Shown here: positions 13,582 through 19,783 of the stretch, in pieces
Layout: every line of letters begins with the position of its first letter
How positions within the stretch are numbered: the stretch's first letter is position 1
Assembly: GCF_004358095.2 (NCBI RefSeq)
Contig: NZ_SMZJ02000016.1
Coordinates: 1-32,235 of the forward strand
Length of the DNA: 32,235 nt
Direction of reading: 5' to 3'
DNA from: Seonamhaeicola sediminis
GTDB lineage: Bacteria > Bacteroidota > Bacteroidia > Flavobacteriales > Flavobacteriaceae
The notes under the pieces: generated by a model
Told to the model about the DNA's origin: nothing
Database searches by the model: none
Seen by the model: the letters and a program-made list of their open reading frames with translations, nothing else
Made by a program: the position numbers and the translations under genes

Positions 13582-13953
13582 TTATTGTTTCTTTTTTCTT
13601 GGTTTACTAGCCTTAGCCAAAGGATTAAATGTGATACATAAATCTAGCCAATAGCTTAAATCGTCTTCAGAATCAAAGCCTTCTGGAGTCACAAATATAT
13701 AGCCCTTCATAGGGCGTCCTGTAAAATCCATAGGTAAACAACATGGTTTTTCAAGTTCCTTTTTATAAACATCCTCACCAATACGAGCCATTAATAAGCT
13801 GTCTCCATATTTTTTATCAATGTGAATACCACAAAGCATTTTATTATCTAATTTAAACAATAAGCCACCCATCATTTTTTGATCAGTAAAATTCACCCTT
13901 TTTTCTTTTAGTTGATTTCTAATACGGTCTGCTAAATATTCGTCGTATGCCAT
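13582..13953 (-). CDS. TfoX N-terminal domain protein
   Basis: 123 aa, ATG at 13953. The whole length matches the TfoX_N fold: an N-terminal helix (MAYDEYLADRIRNQLKEK), the strand block KMMGGLLFKLDNKMLCGIHID, DSLLMARIGEDVYKKEL, then the conserved MDFTGRPMKGYIFVTPEG and a final helix with YWLDLCITFN, and a basic tail KASKPRKKKQ. In other bacteria the domain occurs in competence regulators, but stand-alone versions in Bacteroidetes have no defined role. It is transcribed toward nrfH, with 239 nt between. A low-GC hairpin (13567-13576 with 13588-13597) overlaps its stop codon. Confidence 0.85.
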   Translation of the reverse strand: MAYDEYLADRIRNQLKEKRVNFTDQKMMGGLLFKLDNKMLCGIHIDKKYGDSLLMARIGEDVYKKELEKPCCLPMDFTGRPMKGYIFVTPEGFDSEDDLSYWLDLCITFNPLAKASKPRKKKQ

Positions 13954-14031
13954 GTTATAAACAATAGATTGATTTAAACTTGTGGTATTAAAAATACGTT
14001 TTTATATATTTAAAGTCTTAACCAACTAAAA

Positions 14032-14289
14032 ATGACTAAAAAAAATAAGGCAAAAGCCTATTGGAAAGAAAACATTAGATATGTTCTAATGCTACTAGCT
14101 ATCTGGTTTTTGGTTTCCTATGGGGCTGGAATATTATTTAAAGACGAATTAAATACCATTAAGGTTGCAGGATTTAAATTGGGGTTTTGGTTTGCACAAC
14201 AAGGCTCTATGTATGTATTTGTAATCCTCATTTTTGTGTATGTACGACTTATGAATAAACTCGATAAAAAGTACGGCTATGACAATTAG
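14032..14289 (+). CDS. DUF4212 small membrane subunit of a sodium:solute symporter
   Basis: 85 aa. Two membrane helices (about 17-34 and 57-74) and the conserved blocks AYWKENIRYVLMLLAIWF and QQGSMYVFVILIFVYVRLMN, then a charged tail KLDKKYGYDN. This is the DUF4212 family, nearly always encoded directly before a large sodium:solute symporter protein. Here its last 11 nt overlap the symporter start, so translation is coupled. It is thought to be a companion of the acetate- or organic acid-type carrier. The 78-nt gap upstream must contain the promoter, but only a weak AT-rich box is seen. Confidence 0.9.
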   Translation: MTKKNKAKAYWKENIRYVLMLLAIWFLVSYGAGILFKDELNTIKVAGFKLGFWFAQQGSMYVFVILIFVYVRLMNKLDKKYGYDN

Positions 14290-16006
14290 TTATTTAATTA
14301 CTGCCATAGGCGTTCAAGATTGGACCTACATTTTAGTGGGACTAACTTTTGCATTATACATTGGTATTGCCATTTGGTCAAGAGCAAATTCTACAAAAGA
14401 TTTTTATGTTGCTGGTGGAGGTGTATCACCTTGGGCCAATGGAATGGCTACTGCCGCAGATTGGATGAGCGCCGCATCCTTTATCTCAATGGCTGGTATC
14501 ATTTCTTTTGCCGGTTATGACGGTGCTGTATATTTAATGGGATGGACCGGTGGTTATGTATTATTAGCTTTATTGTTGGCACCCTATTTACGAAAGTTTG
14601 GAAAATTTACAGTACCCGATTTTATTGGAGATAGATATTATTCAAAAACAGCACGTATAGTGGCTGTTTTTTGTGCCTTGCTTGTTTCTTTTACATATGT
14701 TGCTGGACAAATGCGTGGGGTAGGTATTGTATTTTCTAGGTTTTTAGAGGTTGATATTAATACAGGTGTCATCATTGGGATGTTTATTGTACTGTTTTAT
14801 GCCGTTTTAGGAGGTATGAAAGGTATTACTTATACACAGGTGGCACAATATTGTGTGCTAATTTTTGCGTTTATGGTGCCGGCCATTTTTATATCATTTC
14901 AAATGACAGGGAATCCAATTCCTCAATTTGGATTTGGTTCTGAATTAATAGATGGTTCAGGATATTTATTAGACAAACTAGATGGATTGAGTACAGCATT
15001 AGGTTTCAACGAATATACCGAAGGTTCTAAGTCAACTATCGATGTTTTTGCCATTACATTGGCACTTATGGTTGGTACTGCCGGATTACCACACGTTATT
15101 GTTAGATTTTTTACTGTAAAGCGGGTTAGAGATGCACGTAAATCTGCAGGAATAGCTTTGTTACTCATTGTTTTGCTGTATACAACTGCTCCGGCTGTAG
15201 CGGTTTTTGCTAGAACAAATATGATAGAAACGGTTTCTAATAAGCCGTATGAGAATATGCCAGAATGGTTTAAGAAATGGGAAACTACTGGACTCATAAG
15301 ATTTGAAGATAAAAATGATGATGGTAATATTCAATATGTAGCTGATGAAATAAACAATGAACTAACAGTTGATAGAGACATCATGGTACTTGCCAATCCC
15401 GAAATTGCGAGACTACCAAATTGGGTTATTGCTTTAGTAGCGGCAGGAGGTTTAGCAGCTGCTTTATCAACAGCAGCGGGATTATTATTAGTGATTTCGG
15501 CATCGGTTTCACATGATTTAATTAAAAAAGTTATTAAACCCTCCATTTCTGAAAAAGGAGAGTTGATGGCAGCTCGCTTATCGGCAGTTGGAGCAGTTGT
15601 AGTAGCTGGTTATTATGGTATACACCCACCTGGTTTTGTGGCGGCAGTAGTAGCTTTAGCTTTTGGTTTGGCGGCAGCTTCGTTCTTTCCTGCCATTATT
15701 TTAGGAATCTTTTACAAACGTATGAATAAAGAAGGTGCTGTTGCAGGTATGGTGGTTGGTATTTTAGCAATGCTGCTTTATATGATAAAATATAAATTAG
15801 GTTGGTTTGATGATACCATACCCGATAAAAGTGAATGGTGGTTTGGAATCTCACCAGAAGGGTTTGGAACTGTTGCCATGGTATTAAATTTTATAGTATC
15901 TATTACTATAATGAAATTTACAAAAGCGCCTCCTGAAGAGGTTCAGGAAATTGTAGAGAACATTAGGATACCTAGTGGAGCTAGTAATGTTATTAAGCAA
16001 CATTAA
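14279..16006 (+). CDS. Sodium:solute symporter (SSS), VC_2705-type, acetate/organic acid permease-like
   Basis: 575 aa with about 13 membrane helices. SSS hallmarks: residues 33-55 with ANSTKDFYVAGGGVSPWANG, MATAADWMSAASFISMAGI, the GMKGITYTQVAQY segment, GTAGLPHVIVRFFTV, and a hydrophilic insert at about 325-365 (FEDKNDDGNIQYVADEINNE). The DUF4212 partner and the remains of acetyl-CoA synthetase nearby point to acetate or a related monocarboxylate as the solute, but this is inference. The 3' third (from 15390) has a near-identical broken copy at 18533-19123. The C-terminal tail here (SNVIKQH) differs from the tail of the copy (GEAINHK), although the preceding 195 codons are almost the same. 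Confidence 0.93.
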   Translation: MTISYLITAIGVQDWTYILVGLTFALYIGIAIWSRANSTKDFYVAGGGVSPWANGMATAADWMSAASFISMAGIISFAGYDGAVYLMGWTGGYVLLALLLAPYLRKFGKFTVPDFIGDRYYSKTARIVAVFCALLVSFTYVAGQMRGVGIVFSRFLEVDINTGVIIGMFIVLFYAVLGGMKGITYTQVAQYCVLIFAFMVPAIFISFQMTGNPIPQFGFGSELIDGSGYLLDKLDGLSTALGFNEYTEGSKSTIDVFAITLALMVGTAGLPHVIVRFFTVKRVRDARKSAGIALLLIVLLYTTAPAVAVFARTNMIETVSNKPYENMPEWFKKWETTGLIRFEDKNDDGNIQYVADEINNELTVDRDIMVLANPEIARLPNWVIALVAAGGLAAALSTAAGLLLVISASVSHDLIKKVIKPSISEKGELMAARLSAVGAVVVAGYYGIHPPGFVAAVVALAFGLAAASFFPAIILGIFYKRMNKEGAVAGMVVGILAMLLYMIKYKLGWFDDTIPDKSEWWFGISPEGFGTVAMVLNFIVSITIMKFTKAPPEEVQEIVENIRIPSGASNVIKQH

Positions 16007-16098: not shown

Positions 16099-16989
16099 CT
16101 AAAAGCCTAAAATGCGTTCGGTTTGTCTAATGTTATTGTCTATAATATCATTATTCAGAAAATCCAATATATCGTTGAAATGATTATGCATGGGAGCACT
16201 TGATCTTTGATGTGGTTCTGCAACAATCGATGTTAAGAAATAGCTCTTACCAAGTCCTTTTAAACGGTCTGCAATGGCTCGAGAACCGTACAAAAGTAAA
16301 TAGCCAGTATCTTCTTCCTCACAAAAATGATGAGCTGCAATGTAATAAGGCACTAAGTTGTCATTGGTTCCATGAAATAGTTGCGTGGGTATTGCTGTAG
16401 AGGTATTAATATTTTCAAGAGATATTACAGCACCAGTTAAGCTTATAACTCCACCAAATTTGTAATGTTTAGGTAAGATATCATTATCATAAACATAAAC
16501 CAGATTTAAGATAGCCTCGGCTCCAGAACTGTTACCTGCTAAAACTATGTTATTTGTATTTATTTTTAAGTTTTTACTATTTTTTATTAAGAATTTAGCA
16601 GCGTAACTAATGTCCTCTGAAGCTCTATTGAACGCTTTTAATTTCTCTTTAACCTTTACATTGCAACCCAGCCCTTTGTTTTTCATTGTTAATCTATACG
16701 AAATTGAGGCTACTGGAAAACCATGTTCTGCTAGTTTATTGCAAAATTCAACAGTATGAGATTCGTTTCTTGAACCACTAGCAAAACCTCCTCCATGCAC
16801 GTAAATGAGTATCGGTTTTGAATCATTGAAATATTTAGGTTTGTATAAATCTAATTTTAAAGTATCTTTTTTAATTACTTTATAGACGTGAGTAGAACTG
16901 GTAACGGCATTAAGACTATCAGTAGAGTGTATTTGTGAAAAACTAATTTGAAATACAGAAACGATGATAAGTGTTTGTAAAATTTTCAT
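16099..16989 (-). CDS. Secreted alpha/beta hydrolase (esterase/lipase, HSL-like)
   Basis: 296 aa with a signal peptide of about 18 residues (MKILQTLIIVSVFQISFS). The oxyanion-hole motif YVHGGGFASGS is near residue 74, the nucleophile elbow AGNSSGAEA (GxSxG) near 151-159, and the acid Asp is in LFHGTNDNLVPYY. The catalytic His is probably in one of the two nearby candidates, EPHQRSS or MHNHFND. The pattern fits carboxylesterase-type family members acting on small esters. The gene is followed upstream on the minus strand by a membrane acyltransferase gene (22-nt gap), so the two form an operon; esterase plus acyltransferase suggests polymer acetylation or deacetylation. A perfect 18-bp palindrome (16080-16097) abuts its stop codon. 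Confidence 0.85.
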   Translation of the reverse strand: MKILQTLIIVSVFQISFSQIHSTDSLNAVTSSTHVYKVIKKDTLKLDLYKPKYFNDSKPILIYVHGGGFASGSRNESHTVEFCNKLAEHGFPVASISYRLTMKNKGLGCNVKVKEKLKAFNRASEDISYAAKFLIKNSKNLKINTNNIVLAGNSSGAEAILNLVYVYDNDILPKHYKFGGVISLTGAVISLENINTSTAIPTQLFHGTNDNLVPYYIAAHHFCEEEDTGYLLLYGSRAIADRLKGLGKSYFLTSIVAEPHQRSSAPMHNHFNDILDFLNNDIIDNNIRQTERILGF

Positions 16990-17011: not shown

Positions 17012-18106
17012 CTAATTACTTTTCACTTTATCAATTAAAAATTTTATTTTAGAATATAAAAAAGCATTAGTTTTTGCATAATAAAAGGCAATTACACAAA
17101 CAAACATTATAAAAAGTATAGCACCAATAATAGCTTCTTGAGGGTTTAAAACTTTACTTAAATATCTTTTTAACCCATAACCTGTAAAGCTACCGAACAA
17201 CAAAATAAAGTGAAATACATAAATGGAAAGTGTTTTTTGTCCAATTTTTGTAATGAACGAAGCTTTAAAAAACCGTTCTAAGCTATAAAACAAACCAAAT
17301 AATACCAGAACATTACCAAATCGGGTAAATAAATAATTATAATTGGCACTCTCATAAAATAATTCTATGCCTGTAAAGTAGAAAAGTTTATTTAAAAACC
17401 ACGAAGAATGATAAATAAGAAAATAACCCACCATAAAAAAAACAATTATGGTTAACAGTTTAAATTTATACCTGTGTACATGTCTAAAAAAAACAGTTGC
17501 TGTAAATGCACCAAATGCAGAATAACCAAACCATGGTAGTATAGTAAAAACTGAACCATTAGTTTTTGAAAAGTAGTTTGCTAATACAAAAGGGATATGA
17601 TTTAAACTTAAACTTCTATAAAGTGGTTCAGTTAAAAAACACATAAATCCAATAGTAAATAAAACCATTGAAAATAAATAACTGTATTTTCTTAAAAGAA
17701 CATGTAATGCTATCAAAAGAATTAAAGAAACACCAATACACTGCAACACATCAACTACAAGAAAATTGGTACTAAATTTCCCAGAGAACCAACTCAAAAA
17801 ATTAATACGTAGCACGTAACCAGTAAAAATAAGAAATAGTGCTCTTAGTAGGCCTTTTTTAATTCGGGGTTTGTCATCATTTTTAGCAAACGCCTTTAGA
17901 AGCAAATAGGTAAATACTAATCCAGAAATAGTAAAAAACACAGGTGCAGTGATACCTCTAAAGTATTGCCAAATGTTGTAGGTAATGTTAGTATCATCTC
18001 TGTAAATAGGATTTAAAAGGGTATCAATGAAGTGCCCTTGAAGCATCATCAAAATTGCAAAAGCCCTAACAGCATCAATAAAGTACAACCTGTTTGTTTT
18101 ATGCAT
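17012..18106 (-). CDS. Membrane acyltransferase, HGSNAT/DUF1624-like
   Basis: 364 aa with about ten hydrophobic helices. The N-terminus YFIDAVRAFAILMMLQGHFID has the His in the first helix typical of integral membrane acyltransferases (acyltransferase-3 and heparan-alpha-glucosaminide N-acetyltransferase-like proteins), and FRGITAPVFFTISGLVFTYLL follows. These enzymes move acetyl groups from cytoplasmic acetyl-CoA to a sugar on the other side of the membrane. Substrate unknown. It is the first gene of the pair with the secreted esterase, 22 nt apart. It is divergent from the acetyl-CoA synthetase remnant at 18219. Confidence 0.75.
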   Translation of the reverse strand: MHKTNRLYFIDAVRAFAILMMLQGHFIDTLLNPIYRDDTNITYNIWQYFRGITAPVFFTISGLVFTYLLLKAFAKNDDKPRIKKGLLRALFLIFTGYVLRINFLSWFSGKFSTNFLVVDVLQCIGVSLILLIALHVLLRKYSYLFSMVLFTIGFMCFLTEPLYRSLSLNHIPFVLANYFSKTNGSVFTILPWFGYSAFGAFTATVFFRHVHRYKFKLLTIIVFFMVGYFLIYHSSWFLNKLFYFTGIELFYESANYNYLFTRFGNVLVLFGLFYSLERFFKASFITKIGQKTLSIYVFHFILLFGSFTGYGLKRYLSKVLNPQEAIIGAILFIMFVCVIAFYYAKTNAFLYSKIKFLIDKVKSN

Positions 18107-18218: not shown

Positions 18219-18540
18219 ATGAGTAACTATCACATTAAACATTTAGAAGAATATTACCAAGTTTATAGAAAATCTGTTAGGGATCCAGAAAGTTTTTGGG
18301 AAGAAGTAGCAGAAGAACATTTTTTATGGTACAAAAAATGGGATAAAGTTTTACATTGGGATTTTACTAAGCCAGAAGTAAAATGGTTTGAGGGAGCTAA
18401 ACTAAATATTACAGTTAACTGTATTGACAGACATTTAACAACAAATGTAAATAAAACGGCTATTTTATTTGAACCTAATAATCCAGAGGAAGAGGCGCAG
18501 CATATTACCTACAGACAACTACATAAAAGAGTTTGCCAAT
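18219..18540 (+). pseudogene. acs: Truncated acetyl-CoA synthetase, N-terminal 107 codons
   Basis: The open frame begins at an ATG (18219) and reads as the start of AMP-forming acetyl-CoA synthetase: YRKSVRDPESFWEEVAEEHF, then KKWDKVLHWDFTKPEVKWF, then NITVNCIDRHL, and EAQHITYRQLHKRVCQ. An intact enzyme has about 635 residues. Here the sequence stops being acs-like at 18540, and a stop codon follows two codons into foreign sequence, so adenylation and CoA-binding domains are absent. The promoter and start look undamaged. An upstream TATTTTAG at about 18187-18194 may still drive transcription. The break joins a symporter fragment (see the entry at 18533). No full acs copy is in this window. 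Confidence 0.88.
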
Positions 18541-19147
18541 CCTGAATTGCGAGACTACCAAATTGGGTTATTGCTTTAGTAGCGGCAAGAGGTTTAGCAG
18601 CTGCTTTATCAACAGCAGCGGGATTATTACTAGTGATTTCGGCATCGGTTTCACATGATTTAATTTAAAAAGTAATTAAACCCTCCATTTCTGAAAAAGG
18701 AGAGTTGATGGCAGCTCGGTTATCGGCAGTTGGAGCAGTTTTAGTAGCTGGTTATTATGGTATATACCCACCTGGTTTTGTGGCGGCAGTAGTAGCTTTA
18801 GCTTTTGGTTTGGCGGCAGCTTCGTTCTTTCCTGCTATTATTTTAGGAATCTATATAAACGTATGAATAAAGAAGGTGCTGTTGCAGATATGGTGGTTGG
18901 TATTTTAGCAATGCTGCTTTATATGATAAAATATAAATTAGGTTGGTTTGATGATACAATACCCGATAAAAGTGAATGGTGGTTTGGAATCTCACCAGAA
19001 GGGTTTGGAACTGTTGCCATGGTATTAAATTTTATAGTATCTATTACTATAATGAAATTTACAAAAGCGCCTCCTGAAGAGGTTCAGGAAATTGTAGAGA
19101 ACATCAGGATACCTAGTGGAGCTGGTGAAGCTATTAATCATAAATAA
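18533..19147 (+). pseudogene. Broken second copy of the sodium:solute symporter 3' third
   Basis: Bases 18541-19123 align with 15398-15982 of the intact symporter. By eye there are 14 substitutions and two single-base deletions, about 98 percent identity. One deletion at about 18545 and another near 18852 shift the frame, and an AAA codon has become a TAA stop at 18666-18668. A fragment could be read from the ATG at 18863 (MNKEGAVADMVVG, 94 aa), but it lacks most helices. The 8-bp junction TTGCCAAT (18533-18540) also occurs in the parent at 15390-15397. The end of the fragment (GEAINHK) differs from the intact gene, so this is a diverged paralog or gene-conversion product rather than a pure recent copy. 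Confidence 0.93.
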
Positions 19148-19149
19148 AA

Positions 19150-19174
19150 AGAGGTCGTAAATATTACGACCTCT
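19150..19174 (-). terminator. Intrinsic terminator for the outer-membrane protein gene
   Basis: An 11-bp perfect stem (AGAGGTCGTAA at 19150-19160 and its complement at 19164-19174) with a 3-nt loop sits between the symporter relic and the minus-strand OMP gene. Read on the minus strand it is followed by a run of five Ts and more T-rich sequence. It probably serves both directions. Confidence 0.8.
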
Positions 19175-19195: not shown

Positions 19196-19783
19196 TTAGA
19201 GAATGAAAGATAAGCTCAAAATGAGTTGGTCTGGTCTTGTGTCTAACCTATCCTCAATGTTGTTGATGTTATTATTTAAAAATGTGGCTTCGTTATTGTT
19301 AAACCCTCTTTCATATCTAACATCAATACCTATTTTATTTAAGTTTAGTCCTATTCCAAAGTTTAAGCCAACTGAAAAGTCGTTTTCAATATTGTTAATA
19401 GAAATGTTGTCAAATTCAGAATCTAAAATGAACTGTAATGATGGTCCGCCAAAAACACTTAAAGGGCCTATAACCTTAGCGCCAACTAACAAGGGAACAT
19501 CAATTTTTTGCATTTTAAAAGTGTCATCGTTATAATCACTTTTTGTACTAGTGAAAACAGCCTCAGGTTTAAAATATATTTTGTTCCCAACCTTTCCAAA
19601 AAGTCCAAAGTGGTACCCAATATTTCTGTCGGGATGTTTAGCATTTTCACCTACCGAATCAAAATAGTTCCCATTAGCATTATAGTTTAAACCAGCTTTA
19701 AAACCAAACCCGGTTGCTGTTTGTGCTTTGGTTGTAGCAGTTAGAAGTAACGCAAATAATGCGATTAAAAATACATTTCTCAT
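19196..19783 (-). CDS. Outer-membrane beta-barrel protein (PorT/OMP_b-brl type)
   Basis: 195 aa. Residues 1-20 (MRNVFLIALFALLLTATTKA) are a signal peptide. Alternating hydrophobic-polar strands such as GFGFKAGLNYNANGNYF, NIGYHFGLFGKVGNKIYFKPE, VPLLVGAKVIGPLSVFGGP, SVGLNFGIGLNLNKIGIDVRYERG and a C-terminal LILSLSFIL ending in Leu form an eight-stranded barrel of the kind common in Bacteroidetes. The function is unknown; small barrels of this kind are structural or adhesin-like. It is monocistronic, with a strong terminator at 19150-19174 and divergent tgt on the other side. Its own promoter box is not clear. Confidence 0.85.
   Translation of the reverse strand: MRNVFLIALFALLLTATTKAQTATGFGFKAGLNYNANGNYFDSVGENAKHPDRNIGYHFGLFGKVGNKIYFKPEAVFTSTKSDYNDDTFKMQKIDVPLLVGAKVIGPLSVFGGPSLQFILDSEFDNISINNIENDFSVGLNFGIGLNLNKIGIDVRYERGFNNNEATFLNNNINNIEDRLDTRPDQLILSLSFIL

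Follow-up and report, generated by a model that had tools for sequence, protein, structure and literature searches.

When two sister species inherit a duplicated gene, each may keep one of the two shared copies, in different places, together with a relic of the other. Such reciprocal (differential) loss, or divergent resolution, has examples in plants, yeasts and ciliates, with grasses and Paramecium appearing among the titles that a literature search returned. Two local processes can further shape such pairs: interlocus gene conversion between near direct duplicates, which yields a homogenised body and an unconverted end with its own history, and deletion at short direct repeats, which leaves a joint at a short common sequence. 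The gene neighbourhood concerned here, a DUF4212 small-subunit gene followed by a VC_2705-family sodium/solute symporter gene (TIGR03648), lies beside or near acs in four genomes (G001, G002, G003 and G004). None of the papers listed by the literature search dealt with the relic locus described below, and the word Seonamhaeicola was absent among the matches listed for one query.

Results

An acs fragment runs directly into a broken symporter end

The window analysed, 32,235 nt long, is an entire contig (C8) of the Seonamhaeicola sediminis genome. Its region of interest begins with a minus-strand TfoX-N-domain gene (13582–13953; Pfam TfoX_N 30.8 bits, cut-off 30.1), followed on the plus strand by an intact gene pair (14032–16006), hereafter copy A. 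This comprises the DUF4212 gene (14032–14289; above the PF13937 and TIGR03647 cut-offs, and the sole PF13937 match in the genome) and the symporter gene (14279–16006; TIGR03648 866.3 bits, cut-off 320.75). Two minus-strand genes, assigned by profile match and gene order to an alpha/beta hydrolase (16099–16989) and an HGSNAT-like acyltransferase (17012–18106), separate copy A from a plus-strand acs 5′ fragment truncated after codon 107 (18219–18540). This fragment is continued without interruption by a broken symporter 3′ end that starts at 18541 and runs to 19147. Beyond it lie a hairpin read by eye (19150–19174), a minus-strand gene assigned by the same means to an outer-membrane beta-barrel protein (OMP; 19196–19783), and tgt.

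The stretch 18219–19147 is a real pseudogene relic. An octamer, TTGCCAAT, is present on the plus strand at the joint (18533–18540) and within copy A (15390–15397), and from this octamer to the tail 574 of 588 aligned bases are identical between relic and copy A. The alignment bore out the 14 substitutions and two single-nucleotide deletions that the initial annotation had counted by eye, placing the deletions near 18544 and near 18852. The stop and two frameshifts that it had attributed to the relic are likewise present, an AAA codon of copy A (position 15524) having become TAA at 18666. Overall identity between relic and copy A is 97.6%, and a repeat search within the window placed them in families at 97% and 96%. 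The open reading frame remaining at 18863–19144 scores 72.9 bits against TIGR03648, under the cut-off of 320.75. The identity of about 98% initially given for 583 bp beyond the joint applies to the relic body (18541–19123) and fails in the tail (19124–19147), so that identity is not uniform along the relic.

Gene orders point to a duplication that predates the species split

Of the 59 genomes searched with the relic, six besides S. sediminis belong to the same genus, and a separate genus search, in which up to 100 genomes were allowed, gave seven in all. G003 displays the unduplicated order of TfoX-N gene, DUF4212, symporter, two minus-strand genes and an intact, full-length acs. The order in Seonamhaeicola aphaedonensis (G005) is TfoX-N gene, two minus-strand genes, decayed acs 5′ fragment, TfoX-N 5′ remnant, DUF4212, symporter, OMP gene and tgt. 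In G003 and S. aphaedonensis, as in the window, the acyltransferase gene immediately precedes acs or its fragment and is adjoined by the hydrolase gene. S. aphaedonensis thus carries a complete DUF4212-symporter unit, copy B, between the decayed acs fragment and the OMP-tgt neighbours, preceded by a TfoX-N 5′ remnant that abuts the acs fragment. At its A locus, a 136-bp stretch remains between the TfoX-N gene and the first minus-strand gene; this scrap and its flank align over 178 bp to window positions 13899–14075 (E 3.7e-38), and the scrap holds the opening 44 nt of DUF4212, with 34 matches. The right border is common to both species, with the hairpin in the same place and the OMP gene as right neighbour of copy B, and the four genus relatives inspected (G001, G003, G004 and G006) have a different hairpin beside the OMP gene.

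The DUF4212 scrap in S. aphaedonensis and the symporter relic in S. sediminis argue that the former species has lost copy A and the latter copy B, of which the relic is very probably the remainder. Together, the gene orders of S. aphaedonensis and G003 make it highly likely that the duplication predates the split and that each species lost the copy retained by the other, a comparison that draws on one sister species and on assembled sequence. The order acs fragment, copy B and OMP gene, along with the hairpin, is common to both species, each of which holds a remnant of the other's copy and a single DUF4212 gene. Over the seven genus genomes, PF13937 matches number one in each of five (these two species included), two in G001 and none in G006. 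Both DUF4212 genes, copy A of S. sediminis and copy B of S. aphaedonensis, are open and above the family cut-off, and both symporter frames are open; the survivors are putative working copies at different places in the two species. The initial annotation had postulated a second DUF4212-symporter copy beyond acs and a subsequent joining deletion, and had suggested a comparison with sister strains. This central proposal is borne out: such a copy is retained in S. aphaedonensis behind the acs fragment and the TfoX-N remnant, and G003 has an intact acs with a single symporter.

As a test of paralogy between copy A and copy B of S. aphaedonensis, dS was uninformative, as its value (0.88) falls within the spread seen for the remaining gene pairs (0.45 to 1.97). 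In G006 (L040, contig C1), whose genome has no DUF4212 match, acs directly adjoins a NapC/NirT-type cytochrome gene.

Copy B sits at a likely rearrangement joint

In both G003 and G004 an FAA-hydrolase gene comes next after acs, and a ~310-aa gene, labelled lipoprotein-like by eye (Pfam FKBP_C 21.0 bits, just below cut-off), flanks the other side of the OMP-tgt block. In S. sediminis and S. aphaedonensis, matches to these two genes lie 43 and 51 bp apart. This is the complementary joint that a two-break, inversion-like rearrangement would leave, with copy B at the other joint. The TfoX-N remnant implies that the 5′ end of the upstream neighbour was copied together with B. In both species, acs, hydrolase and acyltransferase gave no match better than E 0.39 at the joint beside the FAA-hydrolase gene, where only the FAA-hydrolase gene and its neighbour were significant. 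For this reason, a segment copied at the break is our preferred explanation. The alternative, a complete tandem unit from symporter to acs, would require its second acs and minus-strand genes to have moved to the complementary joint; with later gene loss at that joint, it may account for the same arrangement.

Gene conversion may account for the youthful look of the relic

In the symporter tree, the relic groups with copy A (100/99) and copy B of S. aphaedonensis is their sister (91/99). Taken alone, this tree looks like a recent duplication private to S. sediminis, a view opposed solely by the borders common to both species, the two relics and the tail. Mismatches between copy A and the relic rise from 14 of 588 in the body to 8 of the last 27 bases before the stop (Fisher p ~1e-6), and the relic tail matches copy B of S. 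aphaedonensis at 22 of 27 positions and copy A at 19 of 27. Among 16 body differences, seven are relic-derived, nine ambiguous and none A-derived, while the tail contains five A-derived changes. Identity therefore changes sharply inside the repeat, with the tail following its locus, at a boundary that rests on 27 nt. This points to post-split gene conversion involving A and B that left the tail out. The initial annotation had taken most of the relic's divergence to be recent; given the jump in mismatches and a tail nearer to copy B, the small divergence is better explained by gene conversion than by recent duplication.

The tail of copy A (15983–16006), not homogenised with the relic, shares with the G003 tail a Ser and a Val codon as well as an additional codon ahead of the stop. 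These last codons share states with the G003 symporter and not with the other genus members compared, in a stretch too short to interpret. Upstream of copy A, 202 of 249 positions match the stretch before copy B of S. aphaedonensis, versus 172 of 229 for its A locus. Overwriting of A by B would fit both the tail states and the upstream stretch, with the former amounting to very few bases and the latter perhaps merely showing decay of the S. aphaedonensis scrap. Sliding windows along copy A revealed no clear shift toward G003, copy A being about as near to G003 as to G004 or G001; we rejected a whole-gene shift of copy A to G003, several G003 states being confined to the tail.

The joint is compatible with an 8-bp microhomology

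From the geometry of the S. aphaedonensis locus, the deletion in S. sediminis is estimated at ~1557 bp. On its own the octamer is simply identity between relic and symporter; to count as microhomology, it must also have been present in the lost acs parent. On the acs side, the S. aphaedonensis fragment reads TTGTCAGT, matching TTGCCAAT at six of eight positions, and the acs gene of G020 has TGCCAA at the octamer codons. On the symporter side, copy A carries the octamer, whereas copy B of S. aphaedonensis reads TTGCAAAC. In 200,000 random joints drawn between the S. aphaedonensis acs fragment and the symporter, at least eight common bases occurred in 0.022% and at least six in 0.2%. Of the microhomology deletion put forward initially, the octamer at both sites stands; as the parental acs end is gone, and its side of the joint is represented by the S. 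aphaedonensis fragment, an 8-bp microhomology is no more than plausible.

The acs fragment is probably old, and a separate acs is intact

The acs fragment is an open frame with no stop in 107 codons; it matches Pfam ACAS_N above cut-off and scores 104.4 bits against TIGR02188, below the cut-off of 724.95. Its S. aphaedonensis counterpart ends within ~10 nt of the S. sediminis joint, abutting the TfoX-N remnant. At codon 66, where all 16 functional acs genes compared encode Glu, S. sediminis has GTT and S. aphaedonensis ATC, with the same middle base; codon 77, Gly in the same 16, is changed in both fragments, differently. Four changes are clearly derived in the S. sediminis relic, 22 in the S. 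aphaedonensis fragment and seven are shared-derived, with 14 ambiguous. The nearly coincident fragment ends and the change at codon 66 in both suggest that acs was most likely truncated by the duplication in the ancestor, before the deletion in S. sediminis, and the earlier proposal that the joining deletion broke acs is, on these grounds, probably wrong. Against such an early truncation, 107 open codons with few private changes would represent slow decay for a fragment dead since before the split.

An intact 642-aa acs is encoded elsewhere in the S. sediminis genome (contig C23, 169214–171142), with an orthologue in the matching neighbourhood of S. aphaedonensis (contig C1); both exceed the TIGR02188 cut-off. 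In the acs tree, based on an alignment in which each fragment occupies less than a fifth of the columns, the two fragments form a clade (100/99) separate from the C23/C1 pair (100/100). The C23 gene is thus not the relocated original of the fragment. The initial annotation had suspected a loss of acetate assimilation by acs and, alternatively, a further acs elsewhere; the genome search that it recommended favoured the latter. With an intact acs of another lineage on C23, which could supply the activity, acetate activation need not be lost. TIGR02188 is matched above cut-off in six of the seven genus genomes; in G001, the seventh, contig ends interrupt acs, an effect of the assembly and not a loss of the gene.

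The gene immediately preceding the intact acs differs between the species, being an MFS transporter gene in S. sediminis (L041, 7865–9199) and a sodium:solute symporter (SSF) gene in S. aphaedonensis (L043, 6995–8806); the other neighbours covered by both loci mostly match. On G001 contigs C16, C24, C19 and C26 (L045, L039, L076 and L075), two acs copies, alike at 659 of 726 nt in their 5′ parts, both break off at contig ends, in each case at the same 88-base stretch. G001 also holds two further acs relics (L053, 9038–9545, contig C17; L074, 5780–6057, contig C26), each combining a 5′ piece with nearly the same 3′ piece (from ~nt 1699); they are 91% (196 nt) and 94% (90 nt) alike, and comparison of their surroundings gave only two short, weaker matches.

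Discussion

From the gene orders, the two relics, the conversion-like boundary and the separate intact acs, all directly observed, we infer the following order of events. In the common ancestor of S. sediminis and S. aphaedonensis, a segment with the TfoX-N 5′ part, DUF4212 and the symporter would have been duplicated into acs, next to a chromosomal joint with the OMP-tgt block, and would have truncated acs near codon 108. S. aphaedonensis would then have kept B and deleted A. In the S. sediminis lineage, gene conversion would have homogenised A and B, so that the dead copy looks young; A would have been kept, and the front of B (~1.56 kb) deleted, possibly by way of the microhomology, joining the end of B to the acs fragment at a short common sequence. 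As a whole, this account of shared duplication, opposite resolution, conversion and deletion appears highly probable.

Other histories have to be weighed against it. A recent duplication private to S. sediminis, with an independent copy B in S. aphaedonensis and no gene conversion, would suit the 97.6% identity and the symporter tree. It is very unlikely given the same site between acs fragment and OMP gene, the same hairpin, the better match of the relic tail to copy B than to A, and the scrap of A retained by S. aphaedonensis. That the joint at 18540 is an assembly chimera is barely credible: the assembly is a draft of 50 contigs, but the copies differ (97.6% identity, not 100%), a stop and frameshifts are peculiar to the relic, and both flanks are common with S. 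aphaedonensis. A real, if lesser, possibility, and a variant of the preferred account, is that conversion and deletion were one event, in which a break in B was repaired from A through homologous exchange near 19123 on the right side and illegitimate joining on the left side at TTGCCAAT, which we take to be homology-facilitated illegitimate recombination. The homogenised stretch spans the distance from joint to tail, and the octamer agrees with copy A and not with the TTGCAAAC of copy B; the pre-event copy B of S. sediminis is not preserved, however, which makes this event indistinguishable from conversion followed by deletion. More doubtful is a scenario in which B was an older or foreign allele that overwrote the body of A in the S. 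sediminis lineage and was then destroyed in a single one-sided recombination. On this reading, and with the only working copy oppositely placed in the two species, exchange of the region between them could yield cells lacking a copy, which would amount to a minor bacterial recombination barrier of the divergent-resolution type.

The acs fragment invites two further readings. One is that acs stayed whole until the S. sediminis deletion broke it, possibly at the cost of acs-based acetate activation. The open 107 codons and few private changes speak for this late break, but with the S. aphaedonensis fragment ending at nearly the same nucleotide and an intact acs on C23 we deem it very unlikely. 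The other is that the 107-codon N-terminal frame, open and with low private divergence, has been retained as a small protein. Over 91 codons, however, each of nine functional acs genes is separated from it by 19 to 22 amino-acid-changing differences, compared with 3 to 12.5 among those nine, except for G023 versus the two G001 copies (16 and 18). In addition, E66 and G77, each constant in 16 of 16 functional genes, are both changed, and the orthologous S. aphaedonensis fragment has decayed, all of which renders retention highly improbable. An ancestral truncation of acs by the duplication thus remains our preferred reading.

The locus cautions against dating a duplication by the high identity of a gene to a relic nearby, and against reading a loss of acetate activation into a truncated acs next to the symporter. 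It is a case of ordinary, known genome evolution, unusually well resolved: a small bacterial example in which local duplication, conversion between the copies and opposite loss in sister species can all be read from the sequence. As in divergent resolution elsewhere, each of two sister species keeps one of two shared copies, at different places, and a relic of the other, but here a single local bacterial duplicate is involved rather than a whole-genome duplication. Like other near direct duplicates subject to interlocus gene conversion, the copies have a homogenised body and an end with its own history; in contrast to these, one copy is a truncated relic and the unconverted end measures only ~27 bases. 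The joint resembles deletions at short direct repeats in lying at a short common sequence, and differs from them in that the parental acs end is lost and the repeat length is deduced. Finally, the association of the VC_2705-family symporter and DUF4212 with acs seen in the four related genomes recurs here in altered form, with the presumed working acs of S. sediminis and S. aphaedonensis belonging to another lineage and lying in another place.
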